Below are positions 32,881 to 52,008 of a DNA stretch of 64,000 nucleotides, one piece after another. Location of the stretch: positions 496,001 through 560,000 of the forward strand of contig NZ_CP060394.1 in NCBI RefSeq assembly GCF_014274465.1. The letters are read 5' to 3'. A model generated the notes under the pieces. It worked only from the letters and a program-made list of their open reading frames with translations. It ran no database searches and was not told where the DNA came from. The translations under genes were made by a program, and so were the position numbers. The DNA comes from Alloacidobacterium dinghuense (GTDB lineage Bacteria > Acidobacteriota > Terriglobia > Terriglobales > Acidobacteriaceae). The first letter of the stretch is position 1. Every line of letters starts with the position of its first letter.

Positions 32881-33036
32881 CACGATATGTCGTGAGATAG
32901 ACGGCGTCACGATGGGGCGGATAACGAAATATCGTGAGCTGCCTTGAGCGATTCTGACATCCCTCGAGTAAAGCCTATTTGTTCTAAACAGATTAACGAT
33001 AGGCAGCCAATCAGATTCTTTGGCAAGGCGTGTGCA
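32881..33036 (+). promoter_or_regulatory. Sigma-54 cassette 1: twin palindromes and GG-N10-GC promoter
   Basis: Two copies of an ACGA-N4-TCGT palindrome (32882-32893 and 32924-32935, 42 bp apart, each followed by GAG), then, about 85 bp on, TTTGGCAAGGCGTGTGCA with GG at 33022-33023 and GC at 33034-33035, the invariant spacing of -24/-12 promoters. The same layout recurs at 40951 and 51853. Its direction points to the small decayed frame at 33266 and the rhodanese gene at 33403. Confidence 0.75.
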
Positions 33037-33265
33037 CTCTTCAAAGTCAGTTGCTGAGACATCAACATGCTCAATGCGGTGCAACAACAAAATCTGAGCA
33101 ACGAGAGTACCCGGTGGACAAAGCACCTCTGATCGGATTCACAGGCGTCATCGTAACCGCGATGAGCACGCAGTTGAATGCGCAGCACTGTCAAGGAAAA
33201 ATCATAATATTGAAAGGCTCGAGGAGCCATGGATCGGCGTGACAGAGACCAAGGAGGAATTCAAA

Positions 33266-33398
33266 TGAAAAGCGATCCCGATGATGAACCCGGTATTTAT
33301 CTCTTCTACGCGCTCATCATGTTCGTGGCCTTATTGCTGTAGGTGTGATTGCGGCCGGAATTATGGTCCACGTCACGCTCTATGGGGACAGGAGATGA
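33266..33398 (+). pseudogene. Probably decayed small membrane-protein gene
   Basis: An ATG with a perfect AAGGAGG site starts MKSDPDDEPGIY; the hydrophobic continuation (LFYALIMFVAL, then VGVIAAGIMVHVTLYGDRR) lies in the two other frames. It looks like a single-helix protein of about 45 residues broken by two frameshifts. The same frame as given reads into a Cys-rich tail that is not credible. Confidence 0.35.
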
Positions 33399-33402
33399 TA
33401 AA

Positions 33403-34146
33403 GTGAACCGCCGTACCATCCGCTTTCTCTTTCTGTTGATCGCCGCATTGTGTCCGGCAGTTACCAGAAGTGCTCAGTCTTTCGGACATAGCCTGCAGCC
33501 GACAGCTCTTTACGGCAGAGCTGCGGATGGAAATGGCGCAGCACGGAAGGTAGCCTTCGTTCTGAGCGGCTCTGGTGAACGGTGGCCACTTAGCGTCCAC
33601 GACGACGGGGTGATTGGCATCGGCTCTTGGCTTTTGCCAGGACGCATTCTCGAGAATCAATTGCAAATGCCCACCCGACTTGAACATTTCGCCGTCGGCG
33701 CACTTGTCGCCGCCGGTCTGACGCTCCTTGGGTTCGTCTATTGGAAGCGGCGAGCCCTACGCCGCCGGATCTGGTCATCGCGGATTTCGCCCCAGGAACT
33801 TCACGACATGATGAGTAACGGACACAATCCCCTGATCATTGACCTGCGAACTCCGCTTGATATGCTCGCCGATCCTCGGATGATTCCGGGAGCCATTCGC
33901 CTCACCCAGGAAGAAATATCCACGGCAGCTTCCACCTTGCCGCACGATTGCGATCTTGTCCTCTACTGCACCTGCCCCAACCAGGAATCGAGCATTGATG
34001 TTGCTCTCAAGCTCCGGAACACGGGTCTTACGCGCATACGCCTTCTGTCGGGGGGCTTCCAGGCCTGGAAACAGCTCGGCTTCAAACTCCAGGATGCAAG
34101 CGACAAGATTCACTGGCGTCTCTCGTCGGCTTTCAAACACTTTTGA
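33403..34146 (+). CDS. Membrane-anchored rhodanese-domain protein
   Basis: 247 residues from a GTG preceded by GGAGATGATAAA; a longer in-frame TTG start (33349) is less likely. An N-terminal hydrophobic segment (FLFLLIAALCPAV) is probably a signal or anchor; a second helix (AVGALVAAGLTLLGFVYW) precedes a cytoplasmic rhodanese domain (about 135-235). The domain has LIIDLRTPLDM, the catalytic Cys in YCTCPNQESS and the end LSGGFQAWKQLGF. Rhodaneses carry persulfide sulfur, which fits redox or sulfide handling. Probable target of sigma-54 cassette 1. Confidence 0.82.
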   Translation: MNRRTIRFLFLLIAALCPAVTRSAQSFGHSLQPTALYGRAADGNGAARKVAFVLSGSGERWPLSVHDDGVIGIGSWLLPGRILENQLQMPTRLEHFAVGALVAAGLTLLGFVYWKRRALRRRIWSSRISPQELHDMMSNGHNPLIIDLRTPLDMLADPRMIPGAIRLTQEEISTAASTLPHDCDLVLYCTCPNQESSIDVALKLRNTGLTRIRLLSGGFQAWKQLGFKLQDASDKIHWRLSSAFKHF

Positions 34147-34441
34147 GCGATCTTGCGGCGATGCTTTAGAGCTCAATCACTAAATTCACTGTGACATTTG
34201 GCATGAGCTTTGCACCGTCATGAGTCAAGGGCACGGGGATTTCAAATGGAGATTGCAACTATGACTCACACTCAATCTTTCTCGCTTCTGCCGCGAAATG
34301 GTCATTCTGCGTATATGTAGTCAGTTGTTGATTGCTGTCGGAATGTGGTTTTAGAATCGCCTCAAAAGGCATCGTCGTCCCTCGTGCTCGGTGTGGACCA
34401 ATCAAAGCCAATAAGCGCGGTGATGCCCGTGAGGGATCGTC

Positions 34442-37400
34442 ATGCAACTTTCGGGGTATTCCCTCGAGCGTCTTCGTGATGACGGAGAATTCATTCTGTA
34501 CCGAGCCCATGCGGGGCAACCAGAGCTTCCTCCTGTTCTGTTGCTGGCTCCGGCTTCAACTCGGCCCAGCTCGGAGACACTCAAGAAGATTGATCACGAA
34601 TACTCTTTAAGGAGCGAACTGGACTCAGCTTGGGCAGTGCGTCCCTTAGCCCTTTCGGAGCGAGACGGGCAGACAAAGCTCGTATTTGAAGATCCTGGCG
34701 GCGAAACCCTCGATGGAATCCTTTCGGGGCCGATGGAGATGAGGCAGTTCTTAGGCTTCGCGGTCGGTCTCGCAACAGCTCTTGGCGGTTTGCACGAACG
34801 GAAATTGATCCACAAGGATATAAAGCCCACCAATATTCTGGTTAACTCTACGACCGGTCAGGTCTGGCTCACGGGCCTTGGGATCGCTTCCCGCCTTCGG
34901 CGCGAGCACCAGGCCCCCGAACCTCCCGAGTTCATCGCCGGAACACTGCCTTACATGGCTCCGGAACAAACCGGGCGGATGAATCGCTCGATCGACTCGC
35001 GAAGCGACCTCTATGCCCTCGGAGTCACGCTTTACGAGATGCTGACCGGAAAGCTGCCCTTCACAGCTTCCGATCCGATTGAATGGGTACACTGCCACAT
35101 CGCAAGGTATCCGGTGCCACCTCATGAACGAGCAGAGGGTGTGCCGGCCTGTGTCTCTGCGATCATCATGAAACTGCTGGCCAAAACTCCCGAGGAACGC
35201 TACCAGACTGCGTCCGGGGTGGAGAGTGATCTTCGGCGCTGCCTCGCCGATTGGGAAGCGCACGGCGATATCACGGATTTCACACCCGGCCAGCTCGACG
35301 TCCCAGATCGTCCACTAATCCCTGAGAAATTGTACGGGCGAGCACGCGAGATTGAGACCCTGCTTACTGCGTTTGATCGTGTAGTAGCCGGCGGCAGACC
35401 GGAGTTGGTACTGGTTTCCGGCTATTCCGGAATCGGCAAATCCGCCGTCGTCAATGAGCTTCACAAACCGCTGGTTCCTCCTCGTGGCCTTTTTGCATCG
35501 GGCAAATTCGACCAGTATAAGCGGGATATCCCCTATGCCACGCTCGCGCAGGCCTTTCAGAGTCTTATCCGCCCACTACTTAACAGGAGCGAAGATGAGT
35601 TAGGCAGGTGGCGCAACGTCCTTCGTGAGGCGCTCGATCCGAACGCGCAGTTGATCGTCGGGCTGGTCCCGGAACTAAAGGCCATCATTGGAGAACAGCC
35701 AGTGGTGCCCGAACTTCCGCAGCAGGACGCCCAGCGCCGGTTCCATCTCGTAATCCGGAGATTTATCAAGGTATTCGCGCGGCCGGAACATCCGTTAGCC
35801 CTGTTTCTCGACGATTTGCAATGGCTCGACACTGCGACGTTGGACCTGATGGAGGACCTGCTGGTGCAGCCGGATGTGAAACACTTGCTTTTGATCGGCG
35901 CTTATCGGGACAACGAGGTGGACGCCACACATCCGTTGATGCGCAAGTTACAATGCATCCGCCGGGCGGGAGCGTTACTAGATGACATCGTCCTGGCGCC
36001 TCTAGCTCGTGAAGACCTGAAGCAGTTGATTGCGGATTCTCTCCATTGTGAACCGTGGCATGTTGGCCCGCTCGTGGAGCTGGTTCATGACAAGACAACA
36101 GGCAATCCATTTTTTGCCATCCAGTTCATTTCTGCGCTCTTTGAAGAGGGCTTGCTGACTTTTGATCCTCGCGAACGACGATGGTCTTGGGATCTGAATT
36201 GGATTCACGCCAAGGGGTACACCGATAATGTGGTGGACCTCATGGCCCGAAAGTTAACCCGCCTGGTTCCCGAGACCCAGAACGCATTGAAGCAGCTCGC
36301 CTGCTTGGGTAACAGTGCGGAATTCACGATGCTACGCGTAGTCTACCGAGACTCCATGGAGCAAATGCATGCTCAACTTCTGGAAGCGGTCAGAGCGGGC
36401 TTTATCATGCGCTCGAAAGTCTCCTATCGCTTCCTTCACGATCGCGTTCAAGAGGCAGCGTATTCTCTGATCCCGCAAGAATTGCGCGCAGAGGCGCATC
36501 TTCGAATCGGCACGTTGATGGCATCACACACGCCTCCAGAAGAGCTTGAAGAACGAATCTTCGAAATCGTCAACCAACTCAACCGCGGCTCTCACCTGAT
36601 CACGTCGCGTGCGGAGCGTGAACGCATTGCAGAATTGAACCTCATTGCGGGTAGGCGCGCAAAAATCTCAACCGCGTACGACTCCGCGCTTAAGTACCTT
36701 CACACCGCAAGAGGGTTGTTGACAGACGAAACATGGGACGTTAACTACGATCTTGTCTTCTCGATCGAATATCTCCTGGCCGAGTGCGAATTATTGACCA
36801 CGGATATGGCTGCTGCGGAAAGTAGGCTGTCCATGTTGGCCGAGGAGGCAAAAAACGCCCATGATATCGCCCTCGTCACGCGATTGCGCCTGACGCTCTA
36901 TACAACCATGGACCGCAGCTATCGCGCCGCGGAGGTCTTTCTTGAATACTGGAGAGTTCGCGGCACGGATTGGTCCGCGCACCCTACTGAGGAGGAAGTA
37001 CAACGAGAGTACGACCAGATCTGGTTCTTGCTGGGAAACCGTCAGATCGAGGATCTCGTTGAGTTGCCTTTGATAACCGATCAAGAAGTGCTCGATGTTC
37101 TCGATGTTTTCACTGAAATCGTGACACCTGCGTTGTTCATTGACGCCAAATTTCTTGCTCTCGTGATTTGTCGGATGGTCACCCTTAGTCTGGAGCATGG
37201 CAACTGCGATGGATCGTGTTACGCCTACGTATGGTTGGGTATGCTCGCTGGACCTCACTTCGGAAACTATCAGGCCGGATTCCGGTTTGGGAAGCTTGGC
37301 TACGATTTGGTAGAGAAGCGTGGTTTGGTTCGCTATCAAGCCCGCACCTATATGTCTTTTGGAACTCTTATTATTCCCTGGACGAGACACGTCAAGACCG

Positions 37401-40321
37401 CTCGAGAGCTCCACCGCCGCTGTTTCGTCGCCGCGAACAGGATTGGTGATCTTACTTACGCCGGATACAGCTGCAACACCTTATACACAAATCTCCTTGC
37501 GACAGGAGAACCATTAGCGGATGTACAGCGTGAAGCTGAGGCGGGTCTCAAATTTGCGGTTGACATCCGATTCGCACATGTCATAGATACCATCACGGCG
37601 CAACTCGGCCTCATCCGGACGCTTCGTGGCTTGACAGCAAGATTCGGGTTGTTCAATGACGAGCGCTTCGACGAGCTTCGGTTCGAGCAGCATTTGGCGA
37701 GTGACCCCGTTTTGGCGCTACCCGAGTGTTGGTATTGGATCCGAAAGCTGCAAGCGCGTTTCTTTGCGGGAGACTACCCTTCCGCGATTGAGGCGTCTTT
37801 GAATGCAGAACGACTGCTCTGGGCATCGCCCGCCTTCTTCGAGACAGCCGAGTATCAATTTTACAGTGCACTCTCGCGAGCTGCGTCCTTTGATTCCGCG
37901 ACGCACGACTTGCGCCAGCTGCATTTCGAGGCCCTGGTTGTTCACCAGAAACAGCAGGAGATATGGGCGCAGCATTGCCCGGAGAACTTTGAGAACCGGG
38001 CCGCACTGATAGGCGCGGAGATCGCTCGGATTGAAGGCCGCGTGCTCGACGCCGAGCAGCTATATGAACAGGCCATCCGCTCGGCGCACAGCAATGGATT
38101 TGTTAATAGTGAGGCGATCGCCTATGAACTCGCCGCGCGGTTCTACGCAGCACGTGGTTTCCAAAAATTCGCAGATGCGTATCTGCTCGAAGCCCGGTAC
38201 TGCTATCAGCGCTGGGGTGCTGATGGCAAAGTAGCCCAACTGGACCGTTTGTATCCTCAGCTCAAGAAGGAATCGTTGATCTCGACACCGGCAAGCGCAA
38301 TCCTGGCGCCTACCGAACTCCTAGATCTGGCTACCGTGATGAAGGTCTCACAGGCTGTTTCTGGCGAGATGGTTTTGGAAAAGCTGATCGACAGTCTCAT
38401 GCGCGCTGCGATCGAGCACGCTGGCGCCGAACGAGGGCTCTTGATCCTTTCACGAGGTGATCAGCTCCAGGTTGAAGCAGAGGCTACCAGCGGCGGAAAC
38501 GACGTCACGGTGCATCAGCGAGATGCCTCAATCAATGCGGATGTGGTACCTGAGTCTGTTGTTCGCTACGTGATGCGCACGCGAAATGACGTAATTCTCG
38601 ACGATGCCAGCCTAGGGAACCCGTTTTCCGCCGATTCCTACATCCTTCAGTCTCGCGTGAGATCCATTCTCTGTTTACCGTTGATTAACCAAACAAAAAT
38701 CACAGGTGTTCTCTATCTAGAAAACAACTTGGCTGCGCGCGTCTTCACGCCTGACCGGATTACGGTGTTGAGGGTACTTGTTTCGCAGGCTTCCATCTCG
38801 CTCGAGAATACGCGGCTTTATCGCGATCTTGAAGATCATGAACGGAAAATCCGGCGACTGATCGATTCGAATATCATCGGGATCGTCATCTGGGATCTGG
38901 ACGGACGACTTATCGATGCCAATGACGCGTTTCTCCGTATTGTGGGGTACGAGCGCGCGGATTTGCAGGCAGGGCTTCGATGGTTCGACATGACACCTCC
39001 GGATTGGCAGGAGGTGCACGCTCGCTACGAGGCCGAGGAGCTCAAGGCGACGGGCATGATGCAAGCCCGTGAGAAAGAGTACTTCCGGAAGGACGGCAGC
39101 CGTGTGCCTGTGCTGATCGGGGCAGCTTGCTTCGAAGGCCAACCCAACCAAGGAGTCGCCTACATTCTCGATTTGAGCGAGCAAAAGCGAGCCGAGGAAG
39201 CTCTGCGGCGGAGCGAGGCTTATCTAGCCGAAGCGCAGAGGCAAACCCACACAGGAAGTTGGGCCATTGATGGCACCAGCAGAGAGACCGTTTACTGGTC
39301 TGACGAAATGTTCCGACTCTTCGGCGTCGATCCACAACAGGGCCCACCCACTTGGGAGCAATTCCTGGAGCAGATACACTCAGAAGATCGCGAGAAGGTG
39401 AGGTTTGCGAGCGATACGACGTTTCGCACCGAAGTGAATTGGGACGTCGAATTCAGAATCGTGAAGCCTGACGGAGCGGTCAAGCACATTCATGCCATCG
39501 GCCATCCTGTCTTGGGTCCCTCTGGGCAGCTTGTTCAAGTGCTCGGCACGATGGTCGATGTTACAGAGCGCACGCTTGCCGAAGAAGCACGCGACAGGCT
39601 GCGCCAGCTAGAGGCGGACCTTGCGCATATAACTCGGGTGACTACGATGGGCGAGTTGACCGCCTCGCTCGCGCACGAAATCAAGCAACCAATTGGAGCG
39701 GCGGTAACCAACGCGGAAGCGTGTTCTCGACTACTTGATCGAGATCAGCCGGACCTGCCCGAGGCGCGAGAAGCTGCGTCGGCAATGGCCAGAGATACCA
39801 GACGTGCAGCCGATATCATCGACCGCGTCCGCTCGCTCTACCAGAAGGGTTCTCCACATCTGTATGTAGTTGATGTGAACGAACTCATCAGAGAGATGGT
39901 CACTGTGCTGCACAGTGAGGCGAATCGCCATTCGGTTACGATGCGCACGGATCTTGCCAAAGGGCTCTGCACGGTGCAGGCCGATCGAGTGCAGTTGCAG
40001 CAGGCATTGATGAATCTCATGCGCAACGGCATTGAGTCGATGCAGGACACGAGCGGTGAGCTCACCATCAAGTCACAGTTGACCGGGAACTATGAACTGC
40101 TGATTTCAATCACGGACTCGGGTGTGGGACTGCCCGCCCAGAACATCGACAAGATTTTTAACGCATTCTTCACTACGAAGTATCAAGGTACAGGTCTCGG
40201 ACTGCCAATTGCCCGTTCTATTGTCGAGTCACATGGTGGCCGCGTCTGGGCCACCGCTAACTCCGGACCAGGGGCGACGTTTCAGTTTACGCTGCCCATT
40301 AGGGAGCCAGCCGGCGGATGA
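34442..40321 (+). CDS. Giant kinase 2: protein-kinase-like, AAA ATPase, GAF, two PAS, histidine kinase
   Basis: 1959 residues. Order: Ser/Thr-kinase-like domain (about 1-280), AAA_16/STAND ATPase (about 295-600, Walker A GYSGIGKS at 326-333, LALFLDDLQWLD as Walker B), a long helical repeat region (about 640-1270), GAF (about 1295-1450), PAS (about 1460-1590), PAS (about 1600-1715), then the kinase core with His1745 in AHEIKQP and HATPase to the end. The kinase-like domain has HKDIKPTN but TGLG where DFG belongs, and no clear VAIK Lys, so it is probably a pseudokinase. Such fusions occur in many soil bacteria. No transmembrane helix: cytoplasmic. Confidence 0.9.
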   Translation: MQLSGYSLERLRDDGEFILYRAHAGQPELPPVLLLAPASTRPSSETLKKIDHEYSLRSELDSAWAVRPLALSERDGQTKLVFEDPGGETLDGILSGPMEMRQFLGFAVGLATALGGLHERKLIHKDIKPTNILVNSTTGQVWLTGLGIASRLRREHQAPEPPEFIAGTLPYMAPEQTGRMNRSIDSRSDLYALGVTLYEMLTGKLPFTASDPIEWVHCHIARYPVPPHERAEGVPACVSAIIMKLLAKTPEERYQTASGVESDLRRCLADWEAHGDITDFTPGQLDVPDRPLIPEKLYGRAREIETLLTAFDRVVAGGRPELVLVSGYSGIGKSAVVNELHKPLVPPRGLFASGKFDQYKRDIPYATLAQAFQSLIRPLLNRSEDELGRWRNVLREALDPNAQLIVGLVPELKAIIGEQPVVPELPQQDAQRRFHLVIRRFIKVFARPEHPLALFLDDLQWLDTATLDLMEDLLVQPDVKHLLLIGAYRDNEVDATHPLMRKLQCIRRAGALLDDIVLAPLAREDLKQLIADSLHCEPWHVGPLVELVHDKTTGNPFFAIQFISALFEEGLLTFDPRERRWSWDLNWIHAKGYTDNVVDLMARKLTRLVPETQNALKQLACLGNSAEFTMLRVVYRDSMEQMHAQLLEAVRAGFIMRSKVSYRFLHDRVQEAAYSLIPQELRAEAHLRIGTLMASHTPPEELEERIFEIVNQLNRGSHLITSRAERERIAELNLIAGRRAKISTAYDSALKYLHTARGLLTDETWDVNYDLVFSIEYLLAECELLTTDMAAAESRLSMLAEEAKNAHDIALVTRLRLTLYTTMDRSYRAAEVFLEYWRVRGTDWSAHPTEEEVQREYDQIWFLLGNRQIEDLVELPLITDQEVLDVLDVFTEIVTPALFIDAKFLALVICRMVTLSLEHGNCDGSCYAYVWLGMLAGPHFGNYQAGFRFGKLGYDLVEKRGLVRYQARTYMSFGTLIIPWTRHVKTARELHRRCFVAANRIGDLTYAGYSCNTLYTNLLATGEPLADVQREAEAGLKFAVDIRFAHVIDTITAQLGLIRTLRGLTARFGLFNDERFDELRFEQHLASDPVLALPECWYWIRKLQARFFAGDYPSAIEASLNAERLLWASPAFFETAEYQFYSALSRAASFDSATHDLRQLHFEALVVHQKQQEIWAQHCPENFENRAALIGAEIARIEGRVLDAEQLYEQAIRSAHSNGFVNSEAIAYELAARFYAARGFQKFADAYLLEARYCYQRWGADGKVAQLDRLYPQLKKESLISTPASAILAPTELLDLATVMKVSQAVSGEMVLEKLIDSLMRAAIEHAGAERGLLILSRGDQLQVEAEATSGGNDVTVHQRDASINADVVPESVVRYVMRTRNDVILDDASLGNPFSADSYILQSRVRSILCLPLINQTKITGVLYLENNLAARVFTPDRITVLRVLVSQASISLENTRLYRDLEDHERKIRRLIDSNIIGIVIWDLDGRLIDANDAFLRIVGYERADLQAGLRWFDMTPPDWQEVHARYEAEELKATGMMQAREKEYFRKDGSRVPVLIGAACFEGQPNQGVAYILDLSEQKRAEEALRRSEAYLAEAQRQTHTGSWAIDGTSRETVYWSDEMFRLFGVDPQQGPPTWEQFLEQIHSEDREKVRFASDTTFRTEVNWDVEFRIVKPDGAVKHIHAIGHPVLGPSGQLVQVLGTMVDVTERTLAEEARDRLRQLEADLAHITRVTTMGELTASLAHEIKQPIGAAVTNAEACSRLLDRDQPDLPEAREAASAMARDTRRAADIIDRVRSLYQKGSPHLYVVDVNELIREMVTVLHSEANRHSVTMRTDLAKGLCTVQADRVQLQQALMNLMRNGIESMQDTSGELTIKSQLTGNYELLISITDSGVGLPAQNIDKIFNAFFTTKYQGTGLGLPIARSIVESHGGRVWATANSGPGATFQFTLPIREPAGG

Positions 40322-40407: not shown

Positions 40408-40559
40408 AAACGAAACACACCGGTACCGGGCCAAGTGATTGGGTATTCCGCAGCCGCAAGCGTCACACTCCGCGTTACGTTCACGCTACCGGAGATACTG
40501 AAAACTCAGATAGTTGCACAGTCTCTGCCCTGGTTTTTCGTTGTCTTGCTGCGCGCTCA

Positions 40560-40950: not shown

Positions 40951-41107
40951 ACGATATGTCGTGAGCTAAGGAGGCGCAACGATGGGTAGATGACGAAATG
41001 TCGTGAGTTCCCTTTGGCTCGCTCTGACATCCCCTCGCGCTAAGTCTCCTTGTACTACGTAGATCAGCGATAAGCATCCGACCAGATCATTTGGCAATGA
41101 ATGTGCA
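40951..41107 (+). promoter_or_regulatory. Sigma-54 cassette 2: twin palindromes and GG-N10-GC promoter
   Basis: ACGA-N4-TCGT palindromes at 40951-40962 and 40993-41004, 42 bp apart, then TTTGGCAATGAATGTGCA with GG 41093-41094 and GC 41105-41106. It reads toward the PEP-mutase-like gene at 41332. After it, at 41157-41240, comes a block that in cassette 3 follows the cupin gene, so the cupin has been deleted here. Confidence 0.75.
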
Positions 41108-41331
41108 ACTTCTACGACATCAGGGAATGAGATCCCCGCAGCTCCAGTGAAAGAGGTTCGGCGGATGAATCGGTAATCACAATTTGAGAAGTAGATCACT
41201 CACCTCCGAGAGATTCTCGGGCTCAGAGCTCGATTAACGGTTTCCGTCGCTAGAAGCAATCAGAGTTCCTACCCGCATCAGATCGCGCTGTTTCCCTCGA
41301 TCTGGCAGGGTTGACTGCGATCGGAGATGCA

Positions 41332-42270
41332 ATGAACACGTTCAAGAAACCAATGACAACGCACCCTATCGAAACGGAAGGCCTGGGATCGCAAGAGAAC
41401 TTCAGAGCCCGTCGCCGGGCTTTCCGCACTCTGCATGAGGCAGGCTGTTTCGTGATTCCGAATCCGTGCGACATCGGCTCTGCACGGTACCTGCAGCAGC
41501 TCGGATTCCCCGCGCTGGCGACGACCAGCGCGGGCTTCGCGTTCTCGAAGGGGCTTCCTGACTCCGAAGTTGCGCTCACTTGTGAGCGTAACCTGGCATA
41601 CATTGCCGATATCGCGGGCGCGGTCGATGTTCCGGTCAATGCGGACTTTGCGTCCGGCTATGGAGAGTCACCGCAAGACGTGGCCGGTAATGTCACACGC
41701 TGCATCGCGACCGGCGTCGCGGGACTGTCGATCGAGGATGCAACTGGCGATCCATCGTCGCCGCTTTACGAGCTGCCGCTCGCCGTCGAGCGTGTGCGCG
41801 CTGCGCGCGAGGCGATCGATCAGTCCCGTGCCGACGTCCTGCTGACGGCCAGGGCAGAATGTTTCCTTGTTGGCCATCATGATGCGCTTCGCGAGTCGGT
41901 CCGGCGTCTGCAGGCATTCGCTGAGGCGGGGGCGGACGTGCTATTCGCGCCCGGCCCCCACGATCCCACAGCGATCAAAGCGCTCGTTGACGCGGTTCGG
42001 CCGAAGCCGATCAACGTCCTGGTGGTTCGGGACAGTGGCTTGAGCGTCGCCGACATCGCGGCGCTCGGCGTGCGACGCATCAGTGTCGGCGGCGCGTTGG
42101 CGCTTGCTGCATGGACCGGTTTCATGCGCGCAGCGCAGAAGTTGAAGTCGGAGGGGAGTTTCGCAGGCTTCACGAGCTTGGTGTCGTACGCCGACATCAA
42201 CGGGTTCTTCGTGACCGACTACCGCAGGCGGCAGTCTGATGGGGGGCGATCGGCGGGGTCACCAAGCTGA
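41332..42270 (+). CDS. Isocitrate lyase/PEP mutase superfamily enzyme
   Basis: 312 residues from an ATG with GGAGATGCA upstream. A TIM barrel of the ICL/PEPM class: LHEAGCFVIPNPCDIGSARYL, NADFASGYGES with the metal-binding Asp, LSIEDATG, TARAECF (in place of the usual ARTD) and PINVLVVRDSG. The catalytic loop Cys of isocitrate lyase (KKCGH) is absent, so it is more like oxaloacetate decarboxylase or phosphonopyruvate-type enzymes. Substrate unknown. Probable first gene of the sigma-54 cassette 2 operon. Confidence 0.87.
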   Translation: MNTFKKPMTTHPIETEGLGSQENFRARRRAFRTLHEAGCFVIPNPCDIGSARYLQQLGFPALATTSAGFAFSKGLPDSEVALTCERNLAYIADIAGAVDVPVNADFASGYGESPQDVAGNVTRCIATGVAGLSIEDATGDPSSPLYELPLAVERVRAAREAIDQSRADVLLTARAECFLVGHHDALRESVRRLQAFAEAGADVLFAPGPHDPTAIKALVDAVRPKPINVLVVRDSGLSVADIAALGVRRISVGGALALAAWTGFMRAAQKLKSEGSFAGFTSLVSYADINGFFVTDYRRRQSDGGRSAGSPS

Positions 42271-42289
42271 GTATTCAAGGAGGCGACAG

Positions 42290-42499: not shown

Positions 42500-44182
42500 G
42501 TGACTGAGACCGCACGCTCGACGCTGCTCTCAAACGCCGCGAATGCAGCGCTCATGTTTCCGGTGTTGAGTTCTGCGCAGATTGCACGGATTGCTTCGCA
42601 CGGAGTGATTCGTCCAATCACCCGCGGCGAAGTGTTGATCGAGAATGGCCAAACCAACGTGCCGTTCTTTGTAGTGAAGGCCGGTGAGATCGAGGTCATT
42701 CGCCCATCGGCACTGGACGAGATTCTGGTCGCGATTGTCGGGCCGGCTCAGTTCACCGGTGACATCAGCATGATCCTCGGTCGCCCCGCGCAGATGCGCC
42801 TCCGTGTGAGTGACTCTGGCGAAGTCGTCCAACTGACACGCGACCAGATGCACGCCCTCATTCAAACCGACGCCGAAATCAGCGAAGTGCTGATGAGAGC
42901 GTTGATCCAACGACGGGTCGCGGTGGTTGCGCAGGGGATCGGTGACGTGCTGCTCATCGGCTCCGTCGGGTCCAGGGCAACGCTACGAATCAAACAATTC
43001 TTAACGCGCAATGGCCACCCCTTCAAGTACCTCGATCTTGATCGGGACGTCGATGTACGGCAATTGCTCGATCGCTTTCACGCGGAGCCGGCGGAGATAC
43101 CTGTCGTGATCTGCCGCGATGAGGCGGTGTTGAAGAATCCCAGCAATCAGGAGATCGCCGACTGTCTCGGCTTCAATATGGGGATCGATCGCACCCAGCG
43201 GCGCGATGTCGTCATCGTTGGCGCCGGACCAGCGGGTCTTGCGGCCGCCGTTTACGCGGCTTCCGAGGGACTCGATGTGCTGGTTATCGAGGCGAGCTCG
43301 CCTGGAGGACAAGCGGGCTCGAGCTCGAGAATCGAGAACTACCTTGGATTTCCAACAGGGATTTCAGGGGGAGAGCTGGCCGGACGCGCCTACGCCCAGG
43401 CACAGAAGTTTGGCGCCGAGGTCATGATCGCGAAAGGCGCCGCGGAGTTGGCCTGCGAACACAACGCCTACGGCGTGAGACTCGACGACGGCGTGACCAT
43501 CCCGGCTCGCACAGTGGTCATTGCCACTGGGGCTCGATACCGTAGGCCGTCGCTCGCGAATCTCGGTCAGTTCGAAGGTGTGGGTGTCTACTACAACGCG
43601 ACTTTCATGGAAGCGCAGCTCTGCGACGGCGATGAAGTCATAGTCGTAGGCGGAGCGAACTCGGCCGGCCAGGCCGCGTTGTTTCTGGCGCAGACGGTGA
43701 GACGCGTGCATCTGCTCGTCCGCTCCAGCAGTCTTTCGGCGAGCATGTCGCGATACCTGATTCGGCGTATCGAGGAGACCCCAACAATCCAGATCAAGAC
43801 GAGAACCGAAATCGTGGCTCTTGAGGGAAACGGACATCTAGAGCGTGTGCGGTGGCGCGACGGCACGGGCGCGGTAACGAATCAAAATATTAAGCACGTA
43901 TTCTTGATGACGGGCGCAGAAGCCAACACCGGTTGGCTGAATGGCCGTGTCGCGCTCGATACGAGAGGTTTTATCAAGACCGGATGGGACCTCACGCAGG
44001 AAGATCTCGCCGCTGCCCATTGGCCGCTCGACCGCTCACCATATCTGCTCGAAACCTCACTTCCGGGCGTGTTCGCCGTGGGTGACGTTCGGTGCGGCAA
44101 TGTCAAACGCGTGGCATCGGCAGTCGGTGAAGGATCGATCGCGGTTTCGTTTGTCCATCGCGCGCTTGACCGCGCGATTTGA
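42500..44182 (+). CDS. Cyclic-nucleotide-binding/thioredoxin-reductase-like flavoprotein
   Basis: 560 residues, GTG start. An N-terminal cNMP-binding domain (about 15-135, including TGDISMILGRPAQMRLRV), a thioredoxin/glutaredoxin-like middle (about 150-225, without a CxxC), then a two-dinucleotide-domain oxidoreductase (about 235-560: VVIVGAGPAGLAAAVYAASEG for FAD, VIVVGGANSAGQAA for NAD(P)H, GVFAVGDVRCG at the end). The redox-active CxxC of thioredoxin reductase is missing, so it should use another acceptor. The fusion suggests a redox step gated by a nucleotide signal. In the presumed cassette 2 operon. Confidence 0.88.
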   Translation: MTETARSTLLSNAANAALMFPVLSSAQIARIASHGVIRPITRGEVLIENGQTNVPFFVVKAGEIEVIRPSALDEILVAIVGPAQFTGDISMILGRPAQMRLRVSDSGEVVQLTRDQMHALIQTDAEISEVLMRALIQRRVAVVAQGIGDVLLIGSVGSRATLRIKQFLTRNGHPFKYLDLDRDVDVRQLLDRFHAEPAEIPVVICRDEAVLKNPSNQEIADCLGFNMGIDRTQRRDVVIVGAGPAGLAAAVYAASEGLDVLVIEASSPGGQAGSSSRIENYLGFPTGISGGELAGRAYAQAQKFGAEVMIAKGAAELACEHNAYGVRLDDGVTIPARTVVIATGARYRRPSLANLGQFEGVGVYYNATFMEAQLCDGDEVIVVGGANSAGQAALFLAQTVRRVHLLVRSSSLSASMSRYLIRRIEETPTIQIKTRTEIVALEGNGHLERVRWRDGTGAVTNQNIKHVFLMTGAEANTGWLNGRVALDTRGFIKTGWDLTQEDLAAAHWPLDRSPYLLETSLPGVFAVGDVRCGNVKRVASAVGEGSIAVSFVHRALDRAI

Positions 44183-44184
44183 TT

Positions 44185-44290: not shown

Positions 44291-44342
44291 GAAAACGCTG
44301 AAATCTAAGCCTGAACGAGGCAACGCTAAAATGGAAGGGCTC

Positions 44343-45674
44343 ATGAATCAATGCGCCACATCGGTCCCAAATCACTGCCCAACCCAGGCGCGAGCCGGAG
44401 TGGCAATCGATGCATCGCTGAACCCCTCAATGTATGCTCGGATGTTTCCCGAGTTGCCGTCTTTTCAGGCCGACGAGCAATTCCTTCACGCACTCGGTCG
44501 TGGGGGCGGTCTCTGCGATTGCGGTGACGTCGATGACTCCCCCTCCTCTCTGGGGGACACTGCGGCTGGTTGGCCTATCTTCGGCCAATTCGTGGCTCAC
44601 GACATAACAGCTGACCGCTCCATTTTGCGATCTCATACCCAAACTGCAGAATTACGCAATGCACGCAGCCCGCAACTCAACCTTGAATGCCTATATGGTG
44701 ACGGGCCGACCGGTCATCCATTCCTCTACCGGCGTGACGATCCAGCGAAGTTCCTGCTTGGCTTGGACGAAGCGGACCTCCAACGAAATTCAGAAGGCAT
44801 CGCGATTATCAGTGACCCGCGCAACGATTCGCACATGCTCATGTCGCAACTGCATCTCGCCATGCTCAAGGCACACAACGCGTTTGTCGATGAAGCTCGG
44901 CTCGCGGGAGTAGCGAACGATCGCGTGTTTGAAGAAGCGGCTCGGCAGATGCGGTGCCACTATCAATGGATTGTTCTCAACGAATTTCTACCTACGCTCG
45001 TCGGGCGGTCGCTTGCAGACGAGGTGCTTCGAGAAGGCCCGCAATGGTTTCGCTCGAGTCATGGCGCATTCATACCGCTCGAGTTTGCTGACGCAGCCTA
45101 CCGGTATGGCCACTCTCAGATTCGCCACCGCTACCAATTGAACTTGCATAGTGATCCCATACCGCTCTTTCCTGATCTCCTGGGATTCCGTGAGGTACCG
45201 CGTCAGCGCACGGTCGACTGGAGGCTGTTCTTCGACGCGCCCGGTTCGACATCCGCCCAGCGATCCAAGAAGATCGATGGAAAGCTTGTGCGAGCACTCA
45301 TTAAGTTGCCAGTAGCCGTCACCGGTGAGTGCGAGATCGAAGACTATCATTCACTCGCCGTGCGCGACCTGCAACGGGGACAAGGTGTCGGGCTACCGTC
45401 TGGCGAGGCCGTAGCCCGCCATATCGGAATCGCGCCGCTCAACGCGGAGCAGGTCGGCCTCGCTCCCATGGGTTGGCGTGGTGAAACTCCTTTGTGGTAC
45501 TACGTTCTCCGCGAAGCTGACGTCTGTACGGGTGGTCATCGTCTTGGTCCAGTTGGCGGCCTGATCGTGGCAGAGGTTTTGATCGCACTTATCGATGCAG
45601 ACGCGACATCGTTTCGCCGGAGCCATGAGGAATGGCGGCCTCGAAAAAGACTTACCGAGTTGCTGGCCCCTTAA
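44343..45674 (+). CDS. Animal-type haem peroxidase
   Basis: 443 residues from the ATG that follows GGAAGGGCTC; an upstream ATG at 44331 is four codons earlier. Members of the peroxidase-cyclooxygenase superfamily show the distal His in GQFVAHDIT (His86 here) and the proximal His in YRYGHSQIRHRY (His257), with FIPLEFADAA before it. Both are present. Such bacterial enzymes oxidise halides or phenolics with peroxide. No signal peptide is visible, so it is presumably cytosolic, or exported by another route. Closely follows the flavoprotein gene and may draw on the same redox circuit. Confidence 0.88.
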   Translation: MNQCATSVPNHCPTQARAGVAIDASLNPSMYARMFPELPSFQADEQFLHALGRGGGLCDCGDVDDSPSSLGDTAAGWPIFGQFVAHDITADRSILRSHTQTAELRNARSPQLNLECLYGDGPTGHPFLYRRDDPAKFLLGLDEADLQRNSEGIAIISDPRNDSHMLMSQLHLAMLKAHNAFVDEARLAGVANDRVFEEAARQMRCHYQWIVLNEFLPTLVGRSLADEVLREGPQWFRSSHGAFIPLEFADAAYRYGHSQIRHRYQLNLHSDPIPLFPDLLGFREVPRQRTVDWRLFFDAPGSTSAQRSKKIDGKLVRALIKLPVAVTGECEIEDYHSLAVRDLQRGQGVGLPSGEAVARHIGIAPLNAEQVGLAPMGWRGETPLWYYVLREADVCTGGHRLGPVGGLIVAEVLIALIDADATSFRRSHEEWRPRKRLTELLAP

Positions 45675-45767
45675 TGGCGAACGAGACTGTTGCGCTCCTC
45701 GGTGAAGCGCGCCAAACTATTTTGCCGCAGTACAAAGACCCCGTTAACCTAATGAATGTGACGAACG

Positions 45768-48700
45768 GTGGCACGCTGTCGTTCCTTGGGCTCCTACGCT
45801 GTTTCGGTCTTTTTTGCCATGAATTTTTCCGAGTTCCAAACGACTGACCCCGAATCGGCAATGCGGGCTATTCGACGAAATCCAGAACGATTGACCGATG
45901 TCGTAAGGTTCTTTGCCCGGAACACAACCCGTCAGAGGAGATTCGACCTCTGGCTCTGGTCTTGGCTCGTATTTCTCTGCGTTCCCCTTTACGGGATTGA
46001 CCGTGATCGCAGCCTCAACCAGCTCTACCACACTGCCTGGACCCATCTGGAAGGAGCGCCGGGTGAGGTACGCGCGTTGGCCCAAACCGCGGACGGCTAT
46101 TTGTGGCTAGGGACTGCAACTGGATTATTTCGTTTCGATGGAATTCGATTCGAACCCTACAAACCGCAATCCGGGCAGGCCTTTCCCCAACGTAGCATTT
46201 CCTCTCTATTCGCCGAGCCAGACGGCGGCCTATGGGTGAGTTATTGGTACGGAGGGGCCAGTTTCATTAAGAATGGGACAGTGACCGAGTACGGGAAGGA
46301 GGAGGGGCTTCCTTCCCGTCCAGTGTTGGCCTTCGCGCGTGACCGGAAAGGGGTATTTTGGATAGCAGCAGGGAAAGATGGGCTCGCTCGACTCGAGGGC
46401 TCACGTTGGAGAAAGATTGGTCCTGAATTAGGTTTCGCAGGACCAGCCAACACCGTTTTCGTAGATCACACCGGCACGGTTTGGGTGGGGACGCCGACCA
46501 GTGTCGTATATCTCATGGAGGCGGGAAACCGTTTTCAGATAGCTGCACAGGGCTTGGCAGCTGTCTATAATTTTGCCGAATCGCCAGACGGCAAATTGTG
46601 GATGGCCGAAACGGGCTACGGGGTACGGGCTGTTCCGTTGCCAGCAAAAAGTCATGGAAAGCCGAGCCCGGCAATCTTTGTGGGATCTCAGGCAATCACA
46701 TTTGACAAGCAAGGAAGTCTTTGGATTACCAGCTTGGGCGGTGGAATCCGTCGAGTTCCGTATCCCGAGCATCTGCATCAAACGCAGACAATAAGTCCGT
46801 CTGCGTGGCAGTTCCACAATTCCGAGATCGAGGCGTTCACGCAAAAGGATGGTCTTACAAGCGATTACATATATAGCGTGCTCGAGGACCGCGAGGGCAA
46901 CGTATGGATCGGCGCGAGCGGCGGATTAGATCGATTCCGTGAGAGTCCCGTCGTTTCAGTGCCTCTTCAGCCAATTTCTTACCGTGGTGCTTTGCCGATC
47001 CCATCATTGCACTCTTTTACAACGAGCGCGCTGGCAGTGGGCGACCAAGGGTCGCTTTGGGCTGCCGGTGTGGGACCTCAGCTCCTGCTGAAGATTCAAA
47101 AGGACAGCATCGCGACGCAACTGCGCGACCATCCGGCTGAATGCGCCTATCGTGATTCAAATGGAGTTGTCTGGTTCGCGACGCCCTATTCCGTTTTCCG
47201 TCTTTCAGACGAGCGTTTGGACGCGATTGGTCTGAAGCAAGGAGCAATTACTTATAACTACGATGGCGCCGAGCCTGATGGGCAGGGACTGACACTGCGC
47301 CGCCGCGATTTGCCAACAGCAGGTGGGATCACTCCGAATCCCCGACCGCGCGTTAAAGCTCTCACTGAGGACTCTTTGGGCAGGCTGTGGATATCGATGG
47401 AGTCCGGAACCTTTCGATTAGAGCGGGCCGGTTGGACAAGCCTCGAGAGCTTGGGAGGTCCGCAGGGCACCGCAACTGCAGAGTTCACTGATTCGCAGGA
47501 GCGAATATGGTTCGGGTTCGCGAATATGGTCGCGATGCTGGACGGAGACGGAGTCAGGATTTTTTCTGGGAAGGACGGCGTTCAAGTCGGAGCCGTTACA
47601 TCGATCCAGGGCAAAGGAACGAAGATTTGGATTGGTGGCGAGTTGGGATTAGAGTTTTTTGATGGCAGCCGTTTTCACCCAGTACATCCATCGGATGGCA
47701 GCGCCTTAGGCGGCGTTTCAGGAATCGTTGTCGCTCCTGAAGATGGCTTATGGTTTTCAGAAAATCGGGGAATCATTCACATTCCCGAAGCTCAGCTTCG
47801 ACAGGTGGGCTCCAGTAAAGTGGAATTCGAGACCTTCGGTTTCCTAGACGGGTTGACCGCAGACCTCAGGGGCCCCCTCTCTTCACCGTCGGCTGTACAA
47901 ACAACAGACGACCGCATCTGGTTCGCCACAACAAATGGGGTAGCTTGGATCAATCCGAAGCGTATCGTACGGAACGCAGTGCCTCCGCCAGTATTGATCG
48001 AGTCTGTTATTGCTGACGGTAGGAAATACGGGATCTCAACTTCTTTGAAGTTGCCGCCACGAGCTGGAGATGTGCAAATCGCCTATACGGCTACAAGTCT
48101 CACTGTTCCCGAACGGGTTCGCTTTCGCTATAGGCTTGAAGGACAAGATAAGGAGTGGCAGGATGCAGGAACGCGCCGGGAGGCTTTCTACACAAACCTC
48201 GATCCGGGACCTTATCACTTCCGTGTGATCGCATGTAACAACGACGGGGTCTGGAATGAAGCTGGAACAGTGCTGGATTTTGTTGTGCTGCCGGCGTTCT
48301 ACCAAACGGTCACATTCAGAATTCTCTGTGTCCTCGCCCTAGTGGCGGTTTTGTGGTCGCTCTACCTGCTGCGGGTCCGCAGCATCGAGCAACGTCATCT
48401 CGAACGCAATCGCGCTGAAGAAATGCTTCGGCACGCCCGGGCAGAGCTTGCACACATGAACCGAGTGAGTACCATGGGCGAACTGACCGCCTCGCTGGCG
48501 CACGAAATCAAACAGCCGATTGGGGCGGCTGTCGCAAATGCGGAAGCGTGCTTGCGACTACTCAATCGTAATCAGCCCGATCTGCCGGAGGCACGCGAAG
48601 CTGCCATGGAGATGGCGAGAGATGCTCGGCGTGCAGCCGATATCATCGACCATGTCCGATCTTTGTTCCGAAAGGATTCGTCACACCAGGAAATAATTGA

Positions 48701-49148
48701 CCTAAACGAAGTCATCCAAGAGATGGTTGTGATGCTCCAGAAAGAGGCAAATCGACATTCCGTTACGATGCGTACCAATCCTTCCGAAGGACTTCCCAAG
48801 GTGATGGCGGATCGTGTGCAGATACAGCAGGCATTGATGAATCTCATGCTCAATGGGATTGAGGCCATGGGGGACACGAGCGGCGAGCTCAGCATCAACT
48901 CGCAGTTGAGGGACGACGGTCAAGTGCTGATCGCGGTCAGCGATACCGGCGTGGGGCTGCCCACTGAAAACGCCGACGAGATCTTTAATGCGTTCTTTAC
49001 CACCAAGTCGCAAGGCACCGGTCTGGGCTTGGCGATCACTCGTTCCATTGTCGAGTCGCATGGCGGCCGTATCTGGGCCACCGCGAACTCCGGACCCGGG
49101 GCAACGTTTCAATTTACGCTGCCGATCAGACAGGCAGGAGCTGCATGA
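45768..49148 (+). CDS. Sensor histidine kinase 3 (Reg_prop propeller, Y_Y_Y, kinase)
   Basis: 1126 residues as an open frame from a GTG; ATGs at 45819 or 45861 are equally possible because no ribosome site decides. An N-terminal helix ([17 protein letters not shown]) serves as anchor. Reg_prop propeller about 85-760, Y_Y_Y about 770-850, transmembrane helix about 855-880 ([19 protein letters not shown]), His912 in AHEIKQP and HATPase to the end. The only one of the three kinases with an intact response regulator; ATGA overlap couples them. Signal unknown. Confidence 0.92.
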
Positions 49149-49783
49149 CCTCTCCCGATACTCCTACTGTGTTCATTGTTGATGATGATGCCCGCATGCG
49201 CGCGGCCACGCAGCGTTTATTAAGGACAGTAGGTTTGCATTCCGAGTCGTTTGCTACGCCGGAGGATTTTCTACGGCGCAAGCTTCCAGATGGTCCCAGT
49301 TGCCTTTTGCTAGACGTGCGACTCCCTGGAATGAGTGGTTTGGAGGTCCAACACAAATTAATTGAAGCGGGAGCGCAGATCCCTATCATTTTCATCACGG
49401 GCCATGCAGACATCCCAATGACTGTGAAAGCAATGAAGTCAGGAGCAGTGGAATTTTTGCCAAAGCCTTTCCGGGATCAGGATCTGATAGATGCGATTCA
49501 GCTGGCTCTGAAGCGTGACAGCGAAACAAGGCGACAGCAGAACGAGATTGCGGAATTGAAAGCACGCTACGCGAAGTTGACCGCACGCGAGCGCGAGGTA
49601 ATGCGACTGATAGTTTCAGGTATGCTCACAAAACAGATCGCCTCGACACTTGGTACGACCGAAATCACTGTGACGGTGCAGCGTGGGCAAGTAATGCACA
49701 AGATGCAAGCCAACTCCCCCGCTGAACTGGGAAGAATGGCAGAAAAGCTTAAGCTGCCGACAACGGCTAGCCCAAACGGCTGA
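49145..49783 (+). CDS. FixJ/NarL-type response regulator
   Basis: 212 residues. The receiver has [10 protein letters not shown], phosphoacceptor Asp57 in [22 protein letters not shown] and the Lys in FLPKPFRD. The C-terminal LuxR HTH is [20 protein letters not shown] followed by [20 protein letters not shown]. Typical FixJ length and layout. The gene overlaps the sensor kinase by four bases, so the two form a pair. Confidence 0.94.
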
Positions 49784-49915
49784 GGACCTTTCCCAACTCG
49801 CTTTACTCGATCGCCTTTATACATACATATCGGTACCCTTATCACAATCCATAATTGCGTTCGACGGATAACTGATCAATCCTGTACCTGTATGGCTAGA
49901 GAGAGGCAGGAAAAA

Positions 49916-50269
49916 ATGGTTGCAGTTATCGAAGACGACGAATCGTATCGAGTCGCCGTCCAACGTTTGCTGAAGTCGACAGGCTTTTCAGTGCAATCGT
50001 TCGCCTCTGCGGAGGATTTCTTGAATTCTGGCCAGCAACACGAAACTGGGTGTCTGATCAGTGATATCAGAATGCCGGGGATGTCAGGGCTAGAGCTCCA
50101 GTCCAAGCTGAATTCTGATCATTGCCGGATCCCGACCATCTTCATCACCGCACACGGCGACGAAAAGATGCGCCTGCAGGCAATGCGAGGCGGTGCCGTG
50201 AAATTTCTCGCGAAGCCTTTTGACGGCGAAACTCTACTTGAGGCTGTTCGAGTGGCCCTGAACGGTTGA
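49916..50269 (+). CDS. Stand-alone receiver domain
   Basis: 117 residues from the ATG preceded by AGGCAGGAAAAA; an ATG at 49892 adds eight residues. VAVIEDDESYR, phosphoacceptor Asp50 in LISDIRMPGMSG, IPTIFITAHG and FLAKPFDG are all intact, and no output domain follows. 43 bp downstream begins a sigma-54 activator with no receiver of its own, so the two may act as a divided NtrC. Confidence 0.9.
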   Translation: MVAVIEDDESYRVAVQRLLKSTGFSVQSFASAEDFLNSGQQHETGCLISDIRMPGMSGLELQSKLNSDHCRIPTIFITAHGDEKMRLQAMRGGAVKFLAKPFDGETLLEAVRVALNG

Positions 50270-50312
50270 GAGCTGATCCTTGTTGCCGGCACAGACTTAG
50301 TGGAAGGTATTT

Positions 50313-51425
50313 GTGAGCTCTCTCACGAGACTTCGGTGTGACGAACAAGACGAGAGAGACCGCGAATTTGCCCAAATCGTAGGCAGTAGCACTGCTCTGG
50401 AGTCTGTACTCGCCGAAGTTGAGCGCGTAGCACCAACTGATTCCACCGTGCTGGTCCTGGGAGAAACCGGTACAGGCAAAGAGTTGATCGCGCGCGCTAT
50501 TCACAACATAAGCTCACGCTATGGACATCCATTCGTGAAGTTAAACTGCGCAGCCATTCCCTTCGATCTGTTGGAGAGTGAGTTGTTTGGGCACGAGAAA
50601 GGTGCCTTTACGGGGGCCGTAGCACAAAGAGTGGGCCGCTTCGAAATGGCTGATACCGGCACTCTCTTCCTAGACGAAATCGGAGACTTACCGCTAGCCC
50701 TGCAACCGAAACTCTTGCGCGTTTTACAGGAGCAGGAGTTCGAGCGGCTGGGCGGCGGCCGCACACATCGCATCAACATCCGTCTCTTGGCTGCCACTCA
50801 TCGCGACCTGGAGCAAATGGTCGCACGCGATGAATTCCGCGGCGATCTTTACTATCGGCTGAATGTATTTCCTGTCGCAATACCGCCCCTTCGCGAGCGC
50901 CGGGATGACATACCTCAGCTGGTCCTGCACTTCGTAGAGGAGTTCTCCAGGCGTATGGGGAAGCGAATTGAGCATATACCAGAAACAACAATGAATGCAT
51001 TCTCTACATACCATTGGCCCGGCAATGTGCGAGAACTCCAGAACCTGGTTGAACGCGCCGTGATCCGATCGGATAATGGAGTGCTTCCGAACCCGCTGTC
51101 GACATCACAGTCCTCTTGGAGCTCTGCCCTCAAACTCGGGGCGGATCCTCTATCGGCGGAGGAATCTGGCAGGAGAATAGAAGCGGAAATTATGTCCGAG
51201 CCGCGGTCCATGGATTCACTCGAGGATGTACAACGCCAACATATTCTGCGAGTGCTCGAGAGAACCGGCTGGGTGATCAGCGGACCTAACGGCGCTGGAG
51301 CTATTCTCAATGTCCATCCCAATACACTTCGCAGTCTGATGAGCAGGCTGGGGATTCGGCACCAGGAAGTGCCACGCACTCGACGTGAGTTTTCTCAGCC
51401 GGTGCCCGACGCGTGTCCTGACTAA
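50313..51425 (+). CDS. Sigma-54 transcriptional activator without receiver
   Basis: 370 residues, GTG start with GGAAGG upstream. Walker A GETGTGKE at 50-57, the sigma-54 contact loop GAFTGA at 97-102, Walker B TLFLDEIGDL, an Arg-finger region (FRGDLYYRLNVFPV) and a Fis-type HTH at the end (NGAGAILNVHPNTLRSLMSRL). No N-terminal sensor or receiver domain, so it is either constitutive or regulated in trans by the adjacent receiver. Probable activator of the three sigma-54 cassettes in the island, because it is the only sigma-54 activator visible and the palindromes suit a Fis-type HTH. Confidence 0.93.
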   Translation: MSSLTRLRCDEQDERDREFAQIVGSSTALESVLAEVERVAPTDSTVLVLGETGTGKELIARAIHNISSRYGHPFVKLNCAAIPFDLLESELFGHEKGAFTGAVAQRVGRFEMADTGTLFLDEIGDLPLALQPKLLRVLQEQEFERLGGGRTHRINIRLLAATHRDLEQMVARDEFRGDLYYRLNVFPVAIPPLRERRDDIPQLVLHFVEEFSRRMGKRIEHIPETTMNAFSTYHWPGNVRELQNLVERAVIRSDNGVLPNPLSTSQSSWSSALKLGADPLSAEESGRRIEAEIMSEPRSMDSLEDVQRQHILRVLERTGWVISGPNGAGAILNVHPNTLRSLMSRLGIRHQEVPRTRREFSQPVPDACPD

Positions 51426-51431
51426 GGCCAT

Positions 51432-51660
51432 CCTCAAGTTCGACAATCTTGCGACGATCCGCTGTGACCATGGTCCGGAGATATCCAGTCGCCATTTTCT
51501 GGCATGGACAATCGAGCAAACGACCGACGTGGTCCACATCGGCCCTGGCATGCCCACGGCGAACTCCTTTATAGGAAGCGTCAATAGAAGATCCGTGACG
51601 AGTGTTTGAATACCGGCAGGTTCTGGATCTTTTCGATGCGCGCCAGGATATCGGAATCTT
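51432..51660 (+). pseudogene. IS3-type transposase (orfB) fragment
   Basis: RCDHGPEISSRHFLAWTIEQ is the DDE-type integrase core region seen in IS3/IS481 transposases, with the following VHIGPGMPTANSFIGS. Stops and shifts follow and neither end of the element is evident. Confidence 0.7.
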
Positions 51661-51852
51661 GTGCCCGGGCTCATGGGCCTCACTCCGCGCTGAGCTACAA
51701 ACACAGCACGAGTTGAACTGCGGTGAATAGTTGCTTGCCGTCCTCAGTGAGCACCATGGTTGAGAACCAACCACCGCGTCAAGACAACCATGACGGTTTC
51801 CGCTTTGCCCCGGCGGCAGCTATCGCCCAATTCCGCACGTCTTTTGCGACGC

Positions 51853-52008
51853 ACGATATGTCGTGAGAGAGAGGGCGTCACGATGGGCGGATGACGAAAT
51901 GTCGTAAGTTGTCTTGAGCGCTTCTGATCATCCACTCGCGCCAGGTTCCTTTGTTCCAGCCAGATAGCCGTTAGCAGCGATGTGCATTCGTTTGGCAAGG
52001 CGTGTGCA
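51853..52008 (+). promoter_or_regulatory. Sigma-54 cassette 3: twin palindromes and GG-N10-GC promoter
   Basis: ACGA-N4-TCGT palindromes at 51853-51864 and 51894-51905 (41 bp apart), then TTTGGCAAGGCGTGTGCA with GG 51994-51995 and GC 52006-52007, 60 bp before the cupin start. The best placed of the three copies: an ordinary leader with AGGAGAAAG follows, then the ATG of the cupin gene. Confidence 0.8.

Follow-up and report, generated by a model that had tools for sequence, protein, structure and literature searches.

The genome of the acidobacterium Alloacidobacterium dinghuense contains, within a stretch of 64,000 nucleotides (contig NZ_CP060394.1, positions 496,001 to 560,000 of the forward strand; hereafter referred to as the window), a 38.6-kb integrative element at 18188-56794, which encloses three similar regulatory cassettes together with the gene of a sigma-54 activator, 50313. 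Each cassette consists of two ACGA-N4-TCGT palindromes with a GG-N10-GC promoter downstream. These cassettes are very probably sigma-54 promoters with a two-site enhancer, forming a single regulon run by 50313, where binding and transcription are predicted from the DNA sequence. The original prediction of one such regulon is well supported by the presence of rpoN in the genome, by a geometry that is kept in other genera, and by the link of the site to one class of DNA-binding domain.

The cassettes and their activator

Cassettes A, B, and C were located by inspection of the window at 32882-33036, 40951-41107, and 51853-52008, respectively, all on the forward strand. The twin palindromes, predicted to be upstream activator sites, read ACGATATGTCGT / ACGAAATATCGT in cassette A (32882..32935) and ACGATATGTCGT / ACGAAATGTCGT in cassettes B (40951..41004) and C (51853..51905). 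They start at 32882/32924, 40951/40993, and 51853/51894, being 42, 42, and 41 bp apart. The -24/-12 promoter TTTGGCAAGGCGTGTGCA is identical in A (33019..33036) and C (51991..52008), and B has the variant TTTGGCAATGAATGTGCA (41090..41107). Its TGG lies 97, 99, and 99 bp past the start of the second palindrome, which places the palindromes at -139/-97 (A), -141/-99 (B), and -140/-99 (C). The arrangement claimed originally was confirmed in all three copies, with the start of the first palindrome corrected to 32882. Lying 97-141 bp before the TGG, a placement kept across genera, the palindromes agree with the distance of roughly 80-200 bp from the start that marks upstream activator sites. The GG-N10-GC elements are of the -24/-12 type, and the genome encodes one rpoN (195.7 bits). 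As a separate observation, a strong -24/-12-like match, TGGCATGAGCTTTGCA, stands at 34199-34214 ahead of a gene for a 1959-aa kinase, with no ACGA-N4-TCGT nearby.

ACGAN4TCGT occurs nine times in the window against 1.28 expected, a number reached by 0 of 100 shuffles, and the full cassette pattern has three matches, where none of 100 shuffles gives any. Moreover, the palindrome pair occurs only three times in the whole 6.27-Mb single-contig genome, and all three pairs are on the element. Alternatively, the cassettes might be copies of one segment duplicated along with histidine-kinase genes and without any shared present function. Indeed, a cassette is preceded each time by the 3' region of a kinase gene (31872-32222, 39593-39943, and 48420-48770); over 300 nt these regions share 72-86% identity, and kinase and cassette may have been duplicated together. 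However, strong conservation is confined to the double site (80-90% identity) and the promoter (83-100%), whereas the spacer is 63-67% identical. Neither the upstream flank (100 bp) nor the downstream one (60 bp) exceeds the level of shuffled sequence, apart from the downstream flanks of B and C (67%). Given also that similar cassettes are retained in other genera, a functionless relic of duplication is very improbable.

The activator gene (50313..51425, + strand) encodes 370 aa with an AAA+ domain containing GAFTGA and a helix-turn-helix (HTH) with the helix HPNTLRSLM. The Sigma54_activat match scores 241 bits, the match to HTH_8 is weak (20.8 bits against a cut-off of 22), and no sensor domain was found in the protein. 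As originally claimed, it is the only sigma-54 activator of the window, having the single Sigma54_activat match in this range. The genome as a whole has 28 such matches, 23 of them strong (above 170 bits), and the cassettes could thus be sigma-54 promoters answering to another activator, with 50313 as a non-cognate neighbour or as one of several. We consider this distinctly improbable, as the genome has just one HPNTLR-coding site, within 50313, and the helix goes with the site both in the family sample and in the wide scan described below.

The two parts of 50313 have different relatives. Short, receiver-linked activators at three loci (L026-L028) match it at 85-86% identity in the ATPase and at 40-45% in the DNA-binding domain. 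With longer activators (L114-L116) the order is reversed, at 73-78% identity in the DNA-binding domain and 57-59% in the ATPase. With an ATPase from the short type and a DNA-binding domain from the longer type, 50313 is, as judged from its sequence, a domain-swap hybrid. Directly before it stands a gene for a receiver-only protein (49892..50269, + strand), 83-86% identical to the receivers of L026 and L028 and to one of the two in L027. A receiver-only gene directly upstream of the short activator was present in 18 of the 21 loci scored, the window included. Among the three exceptions, L035 begins at a contig end, L043 has a truncated frame, and L041 is unexplained. Receiver gene and AAA-HTH gene adjoin in the window in the manner of a split NtrC-type regulator; a receiver-only gene ahead of bare AAA-HTH activators (L026-L045) is a common split NtrC-like pair in the family.

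In this activator family, dimers on paired sites loop to the sigma-54 polymerase and ATP drives the opening of the promoter, and the geometry of the cassettes fits this scheme. The C-terminal HTH of 50313 would bind each ACGA-N4-TCGT palindrome as a dimer, and the two dimers, about four helical turns apart, would seed the AAA+ ring. Some 100 bp further downstream, the ring would then meet RNA polymerase-sigma54 on the GG/GC promoter and open this promoter. The receiver 49892, fed by one or more neighbouring histidine kinases, is the likely switch, forming with 50313 a split regulator of the NtrC type; such receiver control is suggested by the adjacency of the genes. Additionally, cassette B may drive the regulator genes themselves, as suggested by the gene order from 41311 to 51425 on the same strand. 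The operon proposed for cassette B contains one terminator-like stem (44157-44178), which comes from a scan that was itself at chance level. Because the scans of the window for sigma-70-like and terminator-like signals both gave chance levels, operon boundaries and autoregulation can only be inferred.

Association of the operator with one helix class

A family sample of 200 genomes was scanned for the codon pattern of HPNTLR-xx-M. The pattern was found in six genomes, in one of them (G027) within a non-activator. The remaining five (the window genome G000, G051, G053, G177, and G084) had it in activators, with a cassette close by in every case. The palindromes are exact in four of these cassettes, and G053 has one palindrome off by one base. 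The window was first met through the original prediction and G051 through its cassette; G053, G177, and G084 were met through the helix pattern. Relative to the TGG, the palindromes lie at -137/-97 in G051, -135/-96 in G177, and -136/-97 in G084. A scan for palindrome pairs with a gap of 28-33 returned three of the 200 genomes (G000, G051, and G193) and missed G177 and G084, where the gap is 27. In G193 the pair is present without a helix match and without a cassette match that includes the promoter.

The strongest single comparison is G272 (locus L114). This genome has two cassettes separated by 902 bp. In both, the palindromes are spaced by 42 bp and carry one substitution apiece, and the GG-N10-GC elements, TGGAAGTGCGGTTGCA and TGGAAGGGCGGTTGCA, lie 97 and 99 bp past the start of the second palindrome. 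The cassettes head a gene of the metallo-beta-lactamase fold and a cupin gene 70% identical to the window cupin (52067..52447). An activator with the helix HPNTLRSLM has its frame starting about 2.7 kb from these cassettes; it shares 76% identity with 50313 in the DNA-binding domain and 58% in the ATPase, and its PAS and GAF domains were confirmed by Pfam. Among 200 genomes of the family of G272, its form of the site occurs only in its own two cassettes. In addition, an NmrA-type gene near the L115 activator is 64% identical to that of the window.

When loci were grouped by helix, 12 loci of the RSRM/RSLM type held 12 pairs against 0.45 expected, spread over eight of the 12 loci, a count that is biased in that some loci were found by their cassettes. 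One of these pairs, at window position 59507 and hence beyond the element, contains two mismatches and probably arose by chance. The 19 loci of short activators with KRTTL-type helices, including the truncated L043, whose helix was not seen, had no pair in 340 kb against 0.55 expected, and use of the ACGA-N4-TCGT operator by the whole short-activator family was rejected on this count. The R(H/N/Y)RM group had no pair in the three 20-kb stretches examined nor in its short loci.

The cassette pattern was further sought in 84,980 species, with one genome for each. Of the 34 matches obtained, 20 have a sigma-54 activator frame, identified from two or more sequence motifs, at a distance of no more than 1.5 kb. 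By a rough estimate from the 23 strong activator genes in 6.3 Mb, chance alone would account for a few per cent. Three of the 20 (L072, L073, and L077) repeat loci of the family sample, namely those of G084, G177, and G051. Eighteen of the 20 lie within 20 nt of the open frame concerned. The helix was readable in 18, all of which start with [PA][TN]TL; KRTTL was acceptable to the script and did not occur. Moreover, a promoter leads away from the activator gene in 20/20. The activator is divergent behind the promoter in half of them (10/20), and in five others, all acidobacterial, it lies upstream in the same direction. A third palindrome between the two, for which up to two mismatches were allowed and 0 or 1 found, is present in 14 of the 15 non-acidobacterial activator-side matches as against none of the five acidobacterial ones; inspection of the middle box between the palindromes of acidobacterial cassettes yielded no firm role. 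Apart from this, the L077 cassette heads a STAS-like protein and the L072 cassette an extracytoplasmic function (ECF) sigma factor, where a sigma-54 to ECF cascade is possible. In a viral collection, the cassette pattern was not found and 14 relatives of the activator were.

Several observations weigh against the regulon. The window promoters themselves are off consensus, with A for C after TGGCA and G for T before TGCA. In a wider class sample, the helix pattern occurred in 17 of 299 genomes (16 of its 18 places being within activator frames, the window's own counted) and the strict cassette in G000 only. The co-occurrence of operator and activator on which the original prediction was to be checked is thus complete in the family sample (five of five) but not in the class sample, where the search yielded either no site or sites with degenerate palindromes or another spacing. 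L115 and L116, which are among the three nearest relatives in the DNA-binding domain, have no pair within about 10 kb on either side. Three loci with HPNTLRSRM activators (L117, L118, and L120) have related sites that are degenerate or differently spaced, the spacing of L117 and L118 differing from that of the window cassettes; these activators are very long, with open frames of 1870-2046 aa and the related sites nearby. In the wide scan, five of the 20 activator-side matches (L051, L054, L067, L071, and L079) have the matched promoter inside the activator's own frame, where it is spurious. Each of these five loci has a better promoter, of the TGGCAC type, beyond the opposite end of the array at a distance of 47-69 bp, pointing away from the activator. 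The arrays are therefore sound and the 97-99 bp distance is not universal, and these loci may represent a second spacing class. Furthermore, 14 of the 34 matches have no activator in the fetched DNA, and several of them are chance-like. Among these 14, L070 stands at a transporter gene resembling the one in L069, a TGGCAC-type promoter is present on the opposite side in L048, and L062 and L076 share one promoter.

The element also codes for further DNA-binding proteins, a TetR-like protein (53254, with a match under the Pfam cut-off), a LuxR protein (24613), and a FixJ-type protein (49145), which may act as additional binders. The palindromes may be operators of one of these factors, the likeness to GG/GC promoters being incidental or secondary, and their size would suit TetR operators. 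However, the same array beside a sigma-54-type promoter recurs next to activators of one helix class in several phyla, and it was not found around the 19 loci of another activator class, which makes this explanation distinctly improbable. The reading of the cassettes as targets of 50313 is therefore preferred: the site appears to go with this class of DNA-binding domain, with a strict link that loosens outside the family.

In a broader proposal, which may equally well prove right or wrong, sigma-54 activators would be assembled from exchangeable parts. ACGA-N4-TCGT arrays would be read across several phyla by a single DNA-binding class, [HK]P[NT]TL[AR]S[RK], and signal modules (PAS-GAF, or a separate receiver and a bare ATPase) would be swapped in front of it while operators and targets stay. 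The window would be an instance of this, in which a mobile element has the swapped activator together with the entire regulon on board, run by a two-gene receiver/ATPase switch. If true, this would provide a cis/trans code that can be read for a set of sigma-54 activators present in several phyla, and an integrative element that brings its own complete activator-dependent regulon. It would also be a domain swap made by nature, where the operator goes along with the DNA-binding domain, with separable input and output modules.

The integrative element and its cargo

The location of cassettes and activator on one element, claimed originally, was verified by its ends. A tRNA-Ala(GGC) gene lies at 18157-18232, and its 3' end recurs as 46-bp direct repeats with 98% identity, forming attL (18188..18233, + strand) and attR (56749..56794, + strand). 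A tyrosine integrase gene (Phage_integrase, 18240..19394, - strand) adjoins attL. TRNA target, flanking direct repeats, and integrase are thus all present. A 22-bp repeat is also found close to each end of the element (18272 / 56654). In a search for an empty att site, the congener G070 showed att-like repeats 17 kb apart at the same tRNA-Ala (C29:32130-32175 and 49164-50045); its site looks occupied as well, and this tRNA-Ala is likely an integration hotspot.

The whole regulon, comprising kinases, receiver, activator, and three target operons, would be cargo of this single element. The originally named target operons hold for rhodanese and cupin. Cassette A heads a rhodanese-domain gene (33349..34146), ahead of which is a 25-codon open reading frame at 33265 with AAGGAGG upstream, and cassette C heads a cupin gene (52067..52447), followed by an NmrA/NAD(P)-binding gene (52476..53303). 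The first gene after cassette B, however, is phosphoenolpyruvate (PEP) mutase-like (41311..42270), and only then come a flavoprotein with cNMP-binding and Pyr_redox_2 domains (42500..44182) and an animal-type haem peroxidase (44331..45674). The regulatory genes include a Ser/Thr kinase-AAA-GAF-PAS-histidine kinase (34442..40321), a Reg_prop/Y_Y_Y sensor histidine kinase (45768..49148), and the FixJ/LuxR-type response regulator (49145..49783); all of these genes are on the + strand. Besides these genes and a third kinase, the cargo identified by Pfam includes a SulP transporter, a trypsin/PDZ protease, a major facilitator superfamily protein, TMEM175, and a nitroreductase. The redox (stress) role suggested for the regulon was drawn from the names of the genes only. 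Ahead of the peroxidase gene, a remnant at 44193-44285 repeats the end of the gene 53254, which is TetR-like (53957-54050). Close by but outside the element are a HipA-like gene (57118-58347) and a caspase-domain/TPR gene (60681-62771).

Comparison with known systems

The same operator class is found at gene sets of kinds whose regulators, CynF and NitA of Proteobacteria, are published. CynF is essential for cynABDS, which has a putative sigma-54 promoter, according to PMC6627978, and NitA, linked to nit1C, is named as a Fis-family sigma-54 regulator in PMC11049912. At L053, L063, L054, and L069, arrays like those of the window stand between a sigma-54 activator with a KPTTLASR helix and such gene sets: a Nit6803-type nitrilase with an MSMEG_0572-family gene at L053, a similar nitrilase (by eye) at L063, an ABC transporter with cyanase at L054, and a similar transporter gene at L069. 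From the gene order, we infer that the activators at these four loci are CynF or NitA. Unlike the window, these loci have three palindromes about 20 bp apart (the third with at most one mismatch) instead of two 39-42 bp apart, and each has one target gene set with other target genes. Furthermore, both of the activators tested (L054 and L063) have a PAS-type sensor region, which 50313 lacks.

Another relative is FhlA of E. coli, the best NCBIfam match of 50313, with the same type of C-terminal HTH. The score of 401.3 bits is below the equivalog cut-off of 830 bits, and 50313 is thus not classed as FhlA. FhlA differs in its helix, KRTTLLSRM, and in the TTTCGACA-like repeats at its targets. Use of the same site by FhlA was rejected, as ACGAN4TCGT is absent from the 15-kb hyc/hyp/fhlA region. 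GTCGA/TCGAC-like repeats, recognised by eye, lie upstream of sigma-54-like sites at KRTTL-helix loci (L031, L034, and L035) as well as at the FhlA targets (L080, hyc/hyp), and they are possibly a second operator class.

In the open-access literature searched, which gave partial coverage, the operator strings had no relevant context, and nothing relevant was found there for an FhlA upstream activating sequence with a palindrome or for sigma-54 with Acidobacteria; a term search of PMC12316311 gave no mention of Acidobacteria. The original claim that the system had not been described before needs qualification, since sigma-54 and enhancer logic is textbook knowledge and the operator class also stands at cyanate and nit1C sets, which have published regulators (CynF and NitA). 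It holds in so far as no printed operator was found in the sources searched. Sigma-54 enhancers and activators are already known, whereas the operator class, its link to the helix class, the hybrid activator, and the element-borne regulon appear to be new forms of this known type.

Two further groups of systems share one part of 50313 each. The receiver-linked short activators (L026-L045), with KRTTL-type helices, have an ATPase up to 86% identical and, in most cases, the receiver-only gene directly upstream, but their DNA-binding domains are 40-50% identical in the closest members and no ACGA-N4-TCGT pair is nearby. The longer acidobacterial HPNTLR activators (L033, L087-L089, L075, and L114), on the other hand, have the helix class, the operator, and a similar promoter distance in common with the window. 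They differ from 50313 in their greater length and their sensor regions (PAS and GAF, Pfam-confirmed for L114 only), and from the window in their targets, such as the STAS-like protein by L077 and the ECF sigma factor by L072.

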